A stretch of DNA of 40,038 bases, taken from NCBI GenBank assembly GCA_017416685.1, contig JAFQBN010000006.1, forward strand, positions 1-40,038. The letters are read 5' to 3'. The notes beneath the pieces are model-generated. The model had not been told where the DNA came from. It made no database searches and saw only the letters and a list, made by a program, of their open reading frames with translations. Position 1 is the first letter of the stretch, and the number at the start of each line of letters is the position of its first letter. Of the stretch, positions 30,180 to 35,447 are shown in pieces. Made by a program: the position numbers and the translations under genes. Source of the DNA: Oscillospiraceae bacterium. Its GTDB lineage: Bacteria; Bacillota; Clostridia; Oscillospirales; Oscillospiraceae.

Positions 30180-30986
30180 TTAGCCCTTGAGTGCAGAGAG
30201 GATCTCGCCTGCGTCCTGCAGCACCAGATGGGGACGATCGGGGCTGGCATCCAGAATCTCCTGCGTAGTCTCACCGCTCATGACCAAAACTCCGGTGACT
30301 CCGGCGTTCAGGCCGGATTTGACGTCGGTATAGATGCGGTCACCCACCACGCAGGTGGCCTGTTTGGGGATACCCAACCGCTCCATAGCCAGCTCGGGCA
30401 TCAGGGGGGAGGGCTTGCCGATGACCACCGGCTCGCGCCCGGTGGCGTTTTTGATGCAGATACACACGCTGCCGCAGTCAGGCACGCTGCCAAACTCCGT
30501 GGGGCAGACCAGATCCGGGTTGGTGGCGATGTAGGGCAGGTCGGGGCGGGTCAGCAGCAGGTAGCTGACATCATGGAGCTTTTGGAAGGTCAGCTCCGTG
30601 TCAAAGCCCATGACCACGCAGTCCGTGTCCTCCACCCGGTCGGTAACGGTGAACCCCTCCATGCGCAGCTCTTCTTTCAGGGATCGGGTGCCACAGACGT
30701 ACAGCCGCTTGCCCTCGTGATGCTTATGGAGATAGTAGGCCGTGGCCTGAGAGGAGGTGATAAAATCTTCCCGGGTGGCCTCAATGCCCAGCCTCTGCAG
30801 CTTTTTGATGTAGTCGGCCACACTTTTGGAGGAGTTGTTGGTCATAAACAGGTAGGTGCGGCCGGTCTTTTTGATGGTGTCCAGCAGCTCGATGGTGAAG
30901 TCGTACAGCCGGTCGCCCAGATACAGGGTGCCGTCCATGTCGAACAGGAACAATTTCATGCTGGAAAGCAAGTCGTGTTGGGACAT
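30180..30986 (-). CDS. HAD-IIA family phosphatase (NagD-like)
   Basis: The 268-residue protein has HAD motif I FDMDGTLYLGD, motif II TNNSS and motif IV GDRIYTDVKSG, with the alpha/beta cap between that defines class IIA (NagD, AraL, 4-nitrophenyl phosphatase, phosphoglycolate and glycerol phosphatases). The ATG at 30986 overlaps the DUF1667 gene's stop (TAATG), so it is the last gene of the glp operon. This suggests a phosphorylated three-carbon substrate, for example glycerol-3-phosphate or a related overflow compound. That is inference only. An internal ATG at 30959 is a possible shorter start. Confidence 0.92.
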   Translation of the reverse strand: MSQHDLLSSMKLFLFDMDGTLYLGDRLYDFTIELLDTIKKTGRTYLFMTNNSSKSVADYIKKLQRLGIEATREDFITSSQATAYYLHKHHEGKRLYVCGTRSLKEELRMEGFTVTDRVEDTDCVVMGFDTELTFQKLHDVSYLLLTRPDLPYIATNPDLVCPTEFGSVPDCGSVCICIKNATGREPVVIGKPSPLMPELAMERLGIPKQATCVVGDRIYTDVKSGLNAGVTGVLVMSGETTQEILDASPDRPHLVLQDAGEILSALKG

Positions 30987-31333
30987 TATATCGCTCCTTT
31001 GGTCACCACGATCCGGCTGCCGAACAGGTCATCCATGACAATGTCACCGATGGAGACAGGCGCAGTCACCGTGGTTTGATGCAGGCGTTCCATTACGGCG
31101 AACATGGCTGCCTTTGGAACGGGGGATTCGGTCTTTACACACACCATTGTATCGTATCGGTTGGAAACACGCAAGACCGCAGTGACGGTGCGCATAGGAT
31201 TTGTACATTCGGCGATGGCATATTGCTCACCACGGGGGCAGGCGTTGCCACGGACGGTCAGTCGGTTATCGCCGCCCTCAACGCACAGGCGGCAGCCCTT
31301 GGGGCAAATAATGCAGGTCAACTCCCGAGTCAT
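30986..31333 (-). CDS. DUF1667 protein of the glp operon
   Basis: This 115-residue protein begins MTRELTCIICPKGCRLCVEG, a Cys-rich start (CxxC...C) typical of DUF1667, and has a further Cys in GNACPRGEQYA. It likely binds an iron-sulfur cluster or zinc. DUF1667 genes usually travel with the GlpA-like and GlpB-like flavoproteins, as here, with 4-bp and 1-bp overlaps to neighbours, and may act as the electron-transfer subunit of an anaerobic glycerol-3-phosphate dehydrogenase. That role is inferred from context, not known for the family. Confidence 0.88.
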   Translation of the reverse strand: MTRELTCIICPKGCRLCVEGGDNRLTVRGNACPRGEQYAIAECTNPMRTVTAVLRVSNRYDTMVCVKTESPVPKAAMFAVMERLHQTTVTAPVSIGDIVMDDLFGSRIVVTKGAI

Positions 31334-32577
31334 GGCAGTTCCTCCACTTCAACTGTGATGGTGTCGCCCGCCCGACGCAGCAGGTCGGGGGACACAGTGA
31401 TGCGCTCCATCTCGCCGGGGGCGACTCTGGGGCGGGGCAGTGCAGTCAGCAGGTCCGCTCCGCTGCGGACGGTGCAGCGCACTTTGCCCATGGGGTGGCT
31501 CACACGGAAAAACAGCGATACGTCCCGAGTTGTGTCGGTGATGGTTTGGGGCAGCACGTAGCGCACACCGTTGCCCGGCTGGGTGTTGATGCTTGTGTTG
31601 AGCAGTGCGCTGCCGCGTACAAATGCGGCGGCGCCGGCACCGGCACGCTCGGCCTCCTCCGATACATAGTCCACCAAATCGTGGACTTGCAGCACATTGC
31701 CGCAGGCAAAGATGCCGGGGATTTGGGTCTGGCAATGCTCGTCCACCAGCGCGCCGCCGGTGATGGGGTCCATAGGAACGCCGGCAGCGCGGGTCAGTTC
31801 ATTTTCCGGAATCAGGCCCACAGAGAGCAGCAGGGTGTCGCAGGGGATGAACCGGCGGGTCTCGGGAATGGGACGGCGCTGCCCGTCCACCTGGGCGATG
31901 GTGACTCCCTCCAAGCGCTTTTGACCATGCACCTGTGCCACGGTGGTGTTCAGGTACAGGGGAATGTCAAAGTCTTCCAGACATTGGACGATGTTACGGG
32001 TCAGACCGCCGGAATAGGGCATGACCTCGCATACGGCCTCTACCTTGGCACCTTCCAGCGTCATGCGCCGGGCCATGATAAGACCAATATCACCGGAGCC
32101 GAGGATGACTACCCGCTTGCCTACATGATACCCCATGCAGTTGATGAGCTTTTGTGCCGTGCCGGCGCTGTAAATACCGGCGGGGCGGGTGCCGCAGATG
32201 CGCAGCGCGCCCCGGCTGCGCTCCCGGCAGCCCATGGCAAGGATGACAGCCCCGGCTTGCAGCTTCACGATGCCATGCCGGCTTTGGGCCGTAACCACCC
32301 GGTCAGGGGTGATGTTGGTGACGGTGGTTTCCGTCAGGACGGGAATCGCACGCCGGGCAACATCCTGGGCATATACATCGGCGTATTCCGGGCCGGTCAG
32401 TTCCCGGCCCAGTTTGTGCAGACCGAATCCGTTGTGGATGCATTGCATCAGGATACCGCCCAGTTGGGGTTCCCGGTCCAGAATGACCACCCGGGTGCAG
32501 CCGGCATCGTAGGCAGCCACCGCCGCGGCCATGCCGGCCGGTCCGCCACCTACAACAACAATGTCATAGTGCATCAT
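31330..32577 (-). CDS. FAD/NAD-dependent oxidoreductase, GlpB-like position in glp operon
   Basis: The 415-residue protein has an N-terminal FAD fold (VVVGGGPAGMAAAVAAYDAG), a middle NAD-binding fold (VVILGSGDIGLIMARR) and an IFACGNVLQVHDLVDYVSEE third motif, the layout of pyridine-nucleotide-disulfide oxidoreductases without the redox disulfide. It may pass electrons between the GlpA-like subunit and NAD or another carrier. The ATG at 32577 overlaps the preceding stop codon by 4 bp; a start 15 codons earlier would run into that gene. The E. coli GlpB is a different fold, so the name is positional only and I give no symbol. Confidence 0.87.
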   Translation of the reverse strand: MMHYDIVVVGGGPAGMAAAVAAYDAGCTRVVILDREPQLGGILMQCIHNGFGLHKLGRELTGPEYADVYAQDVARRAIPVLTETTVTNITPDRVVTAQSRHGIVKLQAGAVILAMGCRERSRGALRICGTRPAGIYSAGTAQKLINCMGYHVGKRVVILGSGDIGLIMARRMTLEGAKVEAVCEVMPYSGGLTRNIVQCLEDFDIPLYLNTTVAQVHGQKRLEGVTIAQVDGQRRPIPETRRFIPCDTLLLSVGLIPENELTRAAGVPMDPITGGALVDEHCQTQIPGIFACGNVLQVHDLVDYVSEEAERAGAGAAAFVRGSALLNTSINTQPGNGVRYVLPQTITDTTRDVSLFFRVSHPMGKVRCTVRSGADLLTALPRPRVAPGEMERITVSPDLLRRAGDTITVEVEELP

Positions 32578-34016
32578 ATCGTTCCAATCCTCCCCAGTAC
32601 CATGCGGGAAGCTCCGCCGCATTTGGTGACCTGCTCCATAGAAATTCCGGTTTCCGCGCAGATTAGTTCCATGACGTAGGGTGCGCAGAACCCGCCCTGA
32701 CAGCGGCCCATGCCGCTGCGGGTGCGGCGCTTGACCCCGTCTACATCCCGGGCGCCGGGATTGGTGCGGATGGCCTGCAAAATTTCACCCTCGCTGACCG
32801 TTTCACAGCGGCACACGATTTTGCCGAAGGCGGGATTAGCTTTGATGTACGCATCCTTTTCGTCGTCAGACAGGTTGCGGAAGGCACAGGGGTCGGGGCG
32901 GGTGCCGTCCCAATCCGCCTTTTCCTGCAGAACAAGGCCCTGCTGACTCAGTAGGTTTGTCAGGTAGCGGGCGATGGACACACAGCAGGTCAGGCCCGGG
33001 GAGTCGATGGCCCCGGCGTGAATCAGGCCGGGGACGGAGGGGGAGGGCTGTAAGATGAAATCCTCCCCGGCGGTGGAGGCGCGCACTCCGGTGAAAGAGG
33101 TGATGACCTGCCGGAAGTCAATGGAGGGGACGCTTTTGGCGGCCAGACGCTCCGACTGCGCCAACCCCTCCGGGGTGGTGGAGGTGCAATCAGGAGTGGG
33201 GACCCGGACAGCGGTGGGACCCACCAGTAGGTTGCCGTGGACGGTGGGGGAAACCAAAATGCCCTTGCCCTCCTTGGTGGGGCACTGGAACAGGGTGTGG
33301 TGGGCGCGATGACCCTCTGCCTTGTCCAGCAGCAGATACTCACCCGCTCGGGGCAGAATGGTGAAGAAGGTGTCGCCGACCATGGCGGCAATGCGGTCGG
33401 AATAGCCGCCGGCGCAGTTGACCAAAAACCGGCCAGACACAACCTGTCCGTCGGCGGCGGTAACGCGGAACTGCTCCCTGCCCCAAAGAATGGAGGTGAC
33501 CTCGAAATTGCGCAGTAAGGCAACGCCGTTGTCCATGGCGTTGCCCACGGCGGCGATGGTCAGCTCGTAGGGGCTGATGATGCCGGCGTTGGGTACGTGC
33601 AGGACCCGGGTCACCGCGGGGGACAGCTCCGGCTCCAGCAAGCGGGCCTCCTCGCCGGACAGCAGAGTCAAATCCGGCACGTGGTTGGCCTGCCCGCGTT
33701 CAAACAGGGTCTGAAGCAGAGTCTCGTCCTCCGGGGAAAAAGCGCAGACCATAGAGCCGTTCCGCTTGTGGGGGACATTCAGCTGCTTTGCCGCCTCGAA
33801 CAGCAGCTCCACGCCCTGGGTGTTCAGTTGAGCCTTTAAGGTACCGGGAACAGGGTCATAGCCGCCGTGGATGATGCCGGAATTGGCCCGGCTGGCGCCC
33901 GTGGAGACATCGTTTTCCCGCTCCAAAAGGCACACAGACAGCTCGTACCGGCTCAGCTCTCTAGCCAGCATGCCGCCGATAACACCTGCACCTATGATTA
34001 CTACATCGTATGTCAT
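32574..34016 (-). CDS. FAD-dependent glycerol-3-phosphate dehydrogenase-like protein (GlpA-like)
   Basis: The 480-residue protein starts with an FAD-binding fold (VVIIGAGVIGGMLARELSRY) and the DAO-family STGASRANSGIIHGGYD segment, and continues with CAGGYSDRIA. It ends with a Cys-rich [2Fe-2S] domain like bacterioferritin-associated ferredoxin (IVCRCETVSEGEI and GRCQGGFCAPYV). This is the arrangement of anaerobic glycerol-3-phosphate dehydrogenase GlpA and relatives, which oxidise glycerol-3-phosphate to dihydroxyacetone phosphate. The start follows AAAGGAGAGG. Directly upstream lies a terminator with a GlpP-type motif, which supports the glycerol-3-phosphate assignment. Confidence 0.88.
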   Translation of the reverse strand: MTYDVVIIGAGVIGGMLARELSRYELSVCLLERENDVSTGASRANSGIIHGGYDPVPGTLKAQLNTQGVELLFEAAKQLNVPHKRNGSMVCAFSPEDETLLQTLFERGQANHVPDLTLLSGEEARLLEPELSPAVTRVLHVPNAGIISPYELTIAAVGNAMDNGVALLRNFEVTSILWGREQFRVTAADGQVVSGRFLVNCAGGYSDRIAAMVGDTFFTILPRAGEYLLLDKAEGHRAHHTLFQCPTKEGKGILVSPTVHGNLLVGPTAVRVPTPDCTSTTPEGLAQSERLAAKSVPSIDFRQVITSFTGVRASTAGEDFILQPSPSVPGLIHAGAIDSPGLTCCVSIARYLTNLLSQQGLVLQEKADWDGTRPDPCAFRNLSDDEKDAYIKANPAFGKIVCRCETVSEGEILQAIRTNPGARDVDGVKRRTRSGMGRCQGGFCAPYVMELICAETGISMEQVTKCGGASRMVLGRIGTI

Positions 34017-34032: not shown

Positions 34033-34095
34033 AAAAAAGAACGGGAAAAACAGATGCGGTATCCGCATCCGTTTTTCCCGTTTCTCAAACTCTCT
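34033..34095 (-). promoter_or_regulatory. Attenuator in the leader of the GlpA-like gene
   Basis: On the minus strand, a 20-bp stem (34040-34059 paired with 34063-34082, one G-U pair) with a 3-nt loop is followed by TTTTTT and ends just before the ribosome binding site. Overlapping its 5' arm is AGAGAGTTTGAGAAACGG (34078-34095). The same motif, with one change, precedes glpP. A weak extended -10 (TGG-TATATA, 34118-34126) could start this leader independently of glpP. Confidence 0.75.
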
Positions 34096-34114
34096 TGGGT
34101 ATTTGGTTGTTATG

Positions 34115-34669
34115 TTATATATACCATAGCTCGGGGCTGCCGGTGGAGATGGCGGTTGCCCCGGCGCTCAGGGCCTCGGTTACCTCGGCTTTGGTTTGGA
34201 GCAGGCCGCCGGCGATGACCGGAATGCCGCTGTCGGCGCAGGTTTTGATGACCTTGGTCACCACACCCGGCATAATTTCCATCAGGTTGGGGTTGGTGCT
34301 GCGAAAGATGTCTCCGGCCCCCTCGGCACCGGCGGAGTCCACGGCGAAAAACCGCTGTACCGCGAACAACCCCTGCTCCCGGGCGTGGCGAATCAGCGGT
34401 CCCTTGGTGGAGAGGATGCCGTCTGCGCCGCATTGGGCCAAAAAGCGGATGCCGGTGCGGTCCTTGCCGATTCCCTCGGCCAAATCCAGGTGAACCAGAA
34501 TGTACTTGCCGGCATCATGAGCCTGTTGCACCCGGTCTGCGATGGTCAGCAGGTTGGCGGACATGTAAAAGATGACCTGAGCCGGGCTGGCGACGGCCTG
34601 CTGCCACTTGTCATCGCCGACGGCGGCGATGACGGGATTGCACTCCAGACAGGTGAGAATGTCGGACAT
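34115..34669 (-). CDS. glpP: Glycerol-3-phosphate-responsive antiterminator GlpP
   Basis: GlpP binds glycerol-3-phosphate and then prevents termination in the leaders of glycerol genes. The 184-residue protein has the family's TIM-barrel-like sequence: NPVIAAVGDDKW near the start, VHLDLAEGIGKDRTGIRFLAQCGADGILSTK, RFFAVDS and the ligand loop IPVIAGGLLQTKAEV with TGSPELW at the end. Length is close to the B. subtilis protein. The start at 34669 follows GGGGGAGG; a longer in-frame start at 34768 would include the leader. It lies upstream of the flavoprotein genes, has its own consensus promoter and carries the same leader motif it probably recognises, implying autoregulation. Confidence 0.94.
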   Translation of the reverse strand: MSDILTCLECNPVIAAVGDDKWQQAVASPAQVIFYMSANLLTIADRVQQAHDAGKYILVHLDLAEGIGKDRTGIRFLAQCGADGILSTKGPLIRHAREQGLFAVQRFFAVDSAGAEGAGDIFRSTNPNLMEIMPGVVTKVIKTCADSGIPVIAGGLLQTKAEVTEALSAGATAISTGSPELWYI

Positions 34670-34686
34670 AAGCCTCCCCCTTTTGC

Positions 34687-34750
34687 AAAAAAAGAGAAAC
34701 GGCAGCTGCGGGCGCAAAACCCGGCAGGCAATCCGTTTCTCTAACTCTCT
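34687..34750 (-). promoter_or_regulatory. Attenuator in the glpP leader
   Basis: On the minus strand, AGAGAGTTAGAGAAACGG (34733-34750) is at the very start of the transcript. Its last part forms the 5' arm of a terminator (34693-34702 with 34733-34742, then a GC-rich inner helix) followed by a T-run at 34687-34693. It matches the motif before the GlpA-like gene at 17 of 18 positions, so it is likely the GlpP target. Confidence 0.78.
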
Positions 34751-34756
34751 AGGGAC

Positions 34757-34785
34757 ACTATACAACAAGGCGTTGGAAAAGTCAA
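34757..34785 (-). promoter_or_regulatory. glpP promoter
   Basis: On the minus strand there is TTGACT (34780-34785), a 17-bp spacer and TATAGT (34757-34762). The predicted start point lies 5-7 bp before the conserved attenuator motif. Confidence 0.82.
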
Positions 34786-35157: not shown

Positions 35158-35190
35158 AAAAAACGTCCCCTCCGAACGGAAGGGACGTTT
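35158..35190 (-). terminator. Terminator of rpsF-ssb-rpsR
   Basis: A 14-bp stem with a G-U pair (35161-35174 and 35177-35190) is followed on the minus strand by TTTTTT. It lies just after the rpsR stop. Confidence 0.8.
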
Positions 35191-35201
35191 AAGGGATGAA
35201 A

Positions 35202-35447
35202 TTAGTCGGTCACGTAGGCCAGCAGGGCGATCTGACGGGCGCGCTTGATAGCCTCGGTCAGCTGACGCTGATGCATGGCGCAGGTGCCGGTGGTGCGGCG
35301 GGGCAGGATCTTGGAGCGCTCGGACACGAAGCGGCGCAGCTTGGCGGCGTCCTTGTAATCGATGCACTCGACCTTATCCGCGCAGAAAGTGCACACCTTG
35401 CGGCGCTTGCGGCCGCGGGGAGCGCGGTTATCACGTTCCATGGACAT
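35202..35447 (-). CDS. rpsR: 30S ribosomal protein S18
   Basis: S18 binds the 30S platform with S6. The 81-residue sequence has the family core [27 protein letters not shown] and the [12 protein letters not shown] end. Its N-terminal part [17 protein letters not shown] keeps the cysteines of the zinc-binding (C+) form. It is third in the classical rpsF-ssb-rpsR operon. Confidence 0.97.

Follow-up and report, generated by a model that had tools for sequence, protein, structure and literature searches.

Two putative GlpP-controlled transcription attenuators in series on a glpP operon, marked by a paired GAGA element that recurs before glycerol genes of Firmicutes

The window, i.e., the whole stretch of 40,038 nt that was analysed, carries on its minus strand a run of genes headed by glpP, with one leader region upstream of glpP and a second one separating glpP from a glpA-like gene. 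The features of the leaders and of the gene run are, in the direction of transcription:

34757..34785, minus strand: promoter-like site of the glpP operon, TTGACT-17-TATAGT (consensus scan, 10/12)
34733-34750, minus strand: motif copy of the glpP leader, AGAGAGTTAGAGAAACGG
34738..34750, minus strand: core of the glpP element, AGAGA-GUU-AGAGA, near the likely first transcribed base
34731..34756, minus strand: possible glpP antiterminator hairpin, GUCC/GGAU, -1.1 kcal/mol (fold with the core held unpaired)
34687..34742, minus strand: terminator of the glpP leader, in which AGAGAAACGG pairs with CCGUUUCUCU, with an adjacent U-run, the second GAGA repeat being included (folds and script criterion)
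34115..34669, minus strand: glpP, glycerol-3-phosphate (G3P)-responsive antiterminator (PF04309, 5.9e-53, residues 13-182)
34078-34095, minus strand: motif copy of the glpA leader, AGAGAGTTTGAGAAACGG
34083..34095, minus strand: core of the glpA-leader element, AGAGA-GUU-UGAGA, in the glpP-glpA gap
34077..34099, minus strand: possible glpA antiterminator hairpin, CCC/GGG, -2.1 kcal/mol (fold)
34034..34082, minus strand: intrinsic terminator of the glpA leader, a 20-pair stem and U-run, its 5′ arm starting with the AACGG of the motif (terminator scan and fold)
32574..34016, minus strand: glpA-like FAD oxidoreductase, DAO and BFD-type 2Fe-2S domains (profile matches)
31330..32577, minus strand: Pyr_redox_2 oxidoreductase, the second enzyme of the operon (profile match)
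30986..31333, minus strand: DUF1667 protein (PF07892)
30180..30986, minus strand: HAD-IIA family hydrolase, which ends the gene run (profile match)

A strong intrinsic terminator (13 pairs, 7 GC) occupies window positions 35161-35190 (minus), just behind an 81-aa ORF (35202-35447).

For the glpA-like protein, the nearest NCBIfam family is the type 2 glycerol-3-phosphate oxidase (291.7 bits, below the cut-off of 460), and GlpA ranks third, behind L-2-hydroxyglutarate oxidase. The HAD-IIA hydrolase (window positions 30180-30986, minus) stays with the gene run in both congeners that carry the same operon; G3P or phosphoglycolate could be its substrate. The window's genome (98.9% complete) has no MIP channel match, i.e., no glpF, and no glycerol kinase over the cut-off was found in it (best match 151 vs 590 bits); the operon of GlpP and an oxidase-like enzyme is retained despite this. 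Since both are missing from the matches, glycerol is doubtful as the inducer here and may be the wrong one; the G3P that is sensed would perhaps be made from lipids or imported as such.

The sequence AGAGAGTTnGAGAAACGG has two copies in the window and no other exact match in the 1.86-Mb genome, and both lie on the minus strand at the positions given for them by the original prediction. With up to three mismatches, they are still the only two sites in the window, against a mean of 0.07 in shuffled sequences, and none of 100 shuffles had two; the whole genome holds four additional three-mismatch matches (reversed control, two). The stretch common to both leaders amounts to 22 nt with two differences, CCCWAGAGAGTTWGAGAAACGG, beyond which the leaders are dissimilar, and this speaks against plain duplication. 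The glpP core begins 7 nt past the end of the promoter-like -10 box and is thus close to the likely first base, in agreement with the predicted position of the motif almost at the start of the transcript; the motif lies 63 nt before the glpP start codon. Promoter-like sites of that quality number four in 6 kb vs 1.8 in shuffles. The 18-mer itself, proposed as a single motif, had to be narrowed: both copies are present, but what is recognisable in relatives is a 13-nt core of two pentamers, AAACGG being part of the local stem or terminator arm.

Terminators with a U-run had been proposed for both leaders and are found in both, at unequal strength. That of the glpA leader is strong: its stem (AACGGG.../...CCCGUU, followed by CUUUUUU) is far more stable than shuffled sequences (z = -7.67). 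The glpP terminator is weaker; seen in folds and by the script criterion, it is absent from the list of the terminator scan, its hairpin is interrupted, and the energy of the leader is no better than expected from its composition (z = -0.55; 57 of 200 shuffles equally good). The idea that the 3′ half of the motif is also the 5′ arm of the terminator holds for glpP, where the second GAGA repeat is shared, but not for glpA, where only AACGG enters the main stem; AACGG is common to both leaders. With the 13-nt core held unpaired, the glpP terminator goes from -25.7 to -16.0 kcal/mol and the base of its stem is displaced from the U-run. The main stem of the glpA leader retains -33.3 of -38.4 kcal/mol and the 20-pair terminator stands, so that a bound protein or hairpin must also take AACGG. 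The candidate antiterminator stems in the window are weak, with only three to four pairs and -1.1 (glpP) and -2.1 (glpA) kcal/mol; for comparison, those of Bacillus pumilus have -1.1 (glpF leader) and -4.4 kcal/mol (glpD leader). The 5′ arm of the glpP hairpin abuts the -10 box and may lie upstream of +1 and be left out of the transcript.

In relatives, the element has the consensus DGAGW-N3-DGAGW, two pentamers with a spacer of 3 nt, sometimes 4, and lies upstream of glpF and glpD in Bacillus and Paenibacillus, of glpQ-glpT in B. haynesii and of glpA-like genes in Clostridia. We searched 127 loci, all with glpP by choice, namely 100 glpP stretches drawn from PF04309 searches at family, class and phylum level, 26 named loci of Bacillus, Paenibacillus and relatives, and the window. 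The pattern [AG]GAG[AT]-N3-[AGT]GAGA, with a terminator stem starting at most 30 nt away, gave 84 matches in 59 of the 127 loci, 76 of them upstream of a labelled glp gene; the next gene was glpF in 24 cases, glpD in 24, glpA in 16, glpP in seven, glpK in five and unlabelled in eight. Many Bacillus loci are near-identical, and 39 of the 84 elements are non-redundant. Seven of eight control patterns gave 1 to 12 matches (reversed 12; complement 1; scrambles 5 and 10; spacers of 2, 4 and 6 nt 9, 7 and 4, respectively). The spacer-5 control gave 26, of which 22 precede glpD and are probably true sites such as GGAGAACUGGAGAGA in shifted register.

Counted per leader, the looser pattern NGAGW-N3-NGAGW with a terminator was present for glpF in 25/41, glpD in 25/30, glpA in 26/57, glpP in 11/129 and glpK in 5/87, and in none of 57 glpB and 58 DUF1667 leaders. 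Scrambled and complement controls gave 0 to 2; the reversed control (glpP 6, glpA 11, glpD 4, others 0) overlaps the motif and is not independent. Moreover, the glpQ-glpT leader of B. haynesii, unused in motif discovery, contains a promoter-like site followed by GUGAC-GGAGAAUUGGAGA-UUCAC and a terminator; the glpT loci of two other genomes (glpT over the cut-off) showed no element on the coding strand of 4.3 kb. Absence from other GlpP-linked genes had been named as the outcome that would speak against the original prediction; instead, a motif of the same form precedes glpF, glpD, glpK, glpA-like genes and glpQ-glpT. A phylum-wide scan for the pattern plus a T-run was abandoned, matching at least 135 of 249 genomes and being too unspecific without the terminator test.

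Other arrangements were also seen. One glpF gene is preceded by tandem gates (L209:7743-7864, minus), two complete GAGA elements at a distance of 93 nt, each with its terminator. In L043, glpP is preceded at about 200 and 100 nt by two repeated blocks, TCTAAGCTCTATGAGAGAAA..., which are not of the N3 form and each of which apparently has a hairpin, and in L088 a repeated stretch, GTTATGATGTGCTGAGGGAGTAGGGAGAATAGATAATT, follows glpP before the next gene.

The leaders could also be ordinary terminators with purine-rich, Shine-Dalgarno-like repeats, the motif being due to chance or to a recent duplication of the leader. GGAGA is indeed like a ribosome-binding site; in the window's own genome, the looser motif is unenriched (22 sites vs 18 for the reversed control), and the best match of a covariance model (described below) in the loci of the window's family, L116 with 23.9 bits, was rejected as a ribosome-binding site without terminator. 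We consider this explanation highly unlikely nonetheless: the identity of the two window leaders ends at ~22 nt, and among the 21 of the 22 genomic sites that were checked, an overlapping terminator scoring at least 11 occurs only at the two window sites, by which further copies in the genome were discarded. It is also at odds with the co-occurrence of the element with glpP.

In a class-level draw of 245 genomes, 112 have a glpA-like gene by hand count, 72 of them with glpP (the window's own included) and 40 without. We compared the leaders of the 50 glpA-like genes that scored best in glpP-bearing genomes (own genome aside) with those of the 30 that scored best in genomes without glpP over the cut-off. 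An element with terminator was present in 31/50 vs 0/30 (Fisher p = 2.3e-9; 0/29 and p = 4.9e-9 on dropping G220, whose 27.6-bit composite PF04309 match was counted as glpP-absent), and in 13/17 vs 0/15 when the first 60 leaders were tallied by hand by family (p = 7e-6), p-values that are guides only, because the sequences are related, the glpP-bearing set is richer in window-like glpA and some of the glpP-less genomes are incomplete. The glpP-bearing leaders comprise a first set with 23/30 and a next set with 8/20, the latter made up of the higher-ranked G253, G156 and G160 and 17 more; 19 of the 50 have no element by the criterion used for these sets. With the terminator ignored, the motif alone occurs twice among the 30 leaders of genomes without glpP. 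The scrambled control with terminator gave 0 in all three sets, the spacer-4 control 1/30 in the negatives and 1/30 and 5/20 in the positives; contig ends shortened 5 of the 80 upstream stretches. Four of the 20 later leaders (L371, L375, L378 and L384) have a 4-nt spacer within a clear hairpin, as judged by eye and post hoc, and the spacer is thus not strictly 3 nt.

In five genomes (G230, G197, G188, G160 and G156), the element-bearing glpA-like gene and the sole glpP match lie on different contigs, as a trans-acting regulator allows. This bears on the proposal that another RNA-binding protein, e.g., of the CsrA type, reads the element while GlpP is merely its neighbour. CsrA binds GGA in hairpin loops, and GGA in the loop of the element would look like a CsrA site. 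The pentamers in the window, AGAGA and UGAGA, are without GGA, however; in the five genomes named, glpP lies on another contig than the element, and the element is absent from the 30 glpP-less genomes tested; we regard a reader other than GlpP as very improbable.

In most relatives, the core sits in a hairpin loop closed by short arms, of which the 3′ one doubles as the 5′ arm of the terminator, so that hairpin and terminator are mutually exclusive. The arms vary: CGGUU/GACCG (glpD), ACGCGGU/ACCGUGU, GGACUU/AAGUCC, UUGGUUC/GGACCAA and GAUAC/GUAUC. For the 39 non-redundant elements, the mean stem score is 7.10 vs 3.59 (sd 0.40) on swapping 3′ flanks (0/2000 reach the observed value), and 27/39 stems have at least four pairs vs 12.0 in shuffles; when 23 leaders are added, which leaves 44 non-redundant elements out of 62, the score is 7.16 vs 3.54. 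Outside the family there are 35 non-redundant elements, of which the ungapped alignment A3 includes 34, all but L114. Its covariation score is 0.336 vs 0.204 when shuffled (0/500), and among seven registers the symmetric one scores best; only 51.7% of its cells pair in that register, because registers are mixed. Two of five covariation measures are unremarkable (double-change pairs 377/500, further pair types 39/500). Across relatives, these data argue for a competing antiterminator hairpin as the usual mechanism. The original proposal, in which bound GlpP would block the terminator, is thereby modified: the element does overlap terminators, but relatives usually have a competing hairpin rather than mere masking of an arm.

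A 29-nt covariance model, trained without the window and its family, placed the two window copies at ranks 2 and 3 in the window (10.6 and 9.7 bits, E = 0.96 and 1.6), i.e., as a divergent form, and they are missing from its nine genome-wide matches, for which 150 of 492 candidates were scored. Among the loci of the family, the model missed the elements of L117, L118, L119 and L121 and the glpP element of L122, that of L127 being the only one found (E = 0.18). As a stand-alone detector, the model was set aside, failing to single out the window copies; since it is not discriminating, the assignment of these copies rests on position, terminators, the intermediate forms within the family and co-occurrence. 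Rfam models at the gathering threshold have no match in the window and nine in seven relatives, none on the glp element.

A conserved loop combined with alternative hairpins and a terminator might also be expected of a riboswitch, an RNA that senses G3P without a protein. The element is small (~25 nt), though, and in the tested set it occurs only alongside glpP; furthermore, a B. subtilis glpD promoter and leader were uninduced in a glpP deletion, according to excerpts of PMC9604022. A protein-free sensor thus appears extremely improbable, and we retain GlpP as the presumed reader of the element.

The combination of both elements recurs in relatives. Within the family, the element is present in 6/17 glpP leaders and 6/9 glpA-like leaders, and five loci have both: the window, L117, L118, L119 and L122. 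The last four come from as many genomes, which represent three other genera (G120; G118 and G022; G078). In the window's genus, PF04309 occurs in 9/64 genomes. The two congeners with the same operon, G650 (GlpP 98% identical) and G648 (93%), keep both elements (L298 and L299, respectively). In G648, the promoter region has diverged, with TTGACT and TATCAT at the same places; the glpP core reads AGAGA-UUU-AGAGA, only the spacer having changed from GUU to UUU, the glpA core is identical and its leader is nearly unchanged. Another five congeners, in which GlpP is of a different kind and the stretch taken contains no glpA-like gene, have no element upstream of glpP (G689, G690, G643 and G656, inspected by eye over 175 nt, and G039, by script), and the glpP match of the congener G641 is partial, with a stop. 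As two congeners and these four genomes from other genera retain the pair, autoregulation seems to be conserved in pair-bearing genomes.

The element and its overlap with terminators, the covariation of the hairpin, the place before glp genes, the co-occurrence with glpP and the conservation of the pair all come from sequence comparison, and together they make it very likely that each of the two leaders is a transcription attenuator under GlpP control, the two being placed in series on one operon. The paired GAGA mark of these leaders is found ahead of glycerol genes of many GlpP-bearing Firmicutes, and GlpP therefore probably switches on itself and the adjoining target; the original reading of GlpP control with autoregulation is largely borne out by the element at glp genes, its co-occurrence with glpP and the conserved pair.

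The order of parts is promoter, attenuator 1, glpP, attenuator 2, glpA-like gene, oxidoreductase, DUF1667 and HAD, which would be read as a single transcript. Without G3P, RNA polymerase would halt at both terminators. G3P, the presumed signal here, would bind GlpP, which would then recognise the two GAGA pentamers as they exit the polymerase and hold them (in most relatives, within a short hairpin loop), removing the 5′ arm of the terminator so that transcription proceeds; the weak stems of the window would have to act in the same manner. GlpP would thereby boost its own synthesis, and the enzyme genes would be reached only past both gates, an arrangement that may provide positive feedback and a steeper response. 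More tentatively, and with doubt outweighing confidence, we put forward a wider model: an uncatalogued, Firmicutes-wide GlpP-target element, a hairpin loop with two GAGA pentamers separated by 3-4 nt and one pentamer per subunit of an oligomer, would be used here twice in series as a double-gated, possibly bistable positive-feedback device that senses internal G3P and not glycerol, since glpF and glycerol kinase were not found.

GlpP antitermination as such is known; what looks new is the element as defined here, the arrangement in series and the autoregulation. Excerpts of PMC9604022, PMC3750489, PMC3997798 and PMC7430163 and a literature search on GlpP do not state the GGAGA repeat, which may be described in the primary work on Bacillus (Glatz 1996, 1998; Darbon 2002; Holmberg), and a comparative study says, in the part available, that the GlpP regulon was not studied (PMC3750489). 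With the element defined, GlpP targets become findable in genomes, and the question of binding can be put to the test with a few point mutations. Series arrangement and autoregulation would amount to a compact positive-feedback switch made from terminators, useful in synthetic biology, where a GlpP leader is already in use as an inducible part (PMC9604022, in excerpt).

Among known systems, the RAT of BglG, LicT and SacT is similar in that the 3′ arm of a protein-held hairpin overlaps a terminator, holding by the protein being proposed here. BglG is also autoregulated. The signal for BglG, LicT and SacT is phosphorylation by the PTS, as opposed to a metabolite inducer for GlpP, and the window's regulator is of an unrelated family: in Pfam, it matches only PF04309 and, weakly, IMPDH, with no BglG-type CAT-RBD or PRD. 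TRAP is a metabolite-bound protein that controls a terminator by reading repeated triplets of the leader. HutP resembles the proposed system in the same respect, reading repeated NAG/GAG triplets, and LicT differs from it by its bulged RAT stem, where the GlpP element has a loop motif (both from excerpts of PMC7430163). Unlike the targets of HutP and TRAP, the GlpP element is limited to two GAG(A) units, which lie within a hairpin loop at a distance of 8 nt.

The nearest counterpart is GlpP antitermination in B. subtilis (glpD, glpFK and glpTQ leaders), the targets of which have a promoter, a binding site and a terminator within the 5′ UTR, as far as excerpts of PMC9604022 describe them; the window also encodes a GlpP homologue (PF04309). 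In Bacillus, the comparison covers B. pumilus and the B. licheniformis group, where GGAGA-N3-GGAGA is present in the leaders of glpF and glpD, and B. haynesii, where it is present in that of glpQ-glpT. The window departs from the B. subtilis system in its pentamers (AGAGA/UGAGA), in having no glpF and no glycerol kinase over the cut-off, and in that its glpP has an attenuator of its own and shares a gene run with the target, by which two gates come to lie in series.
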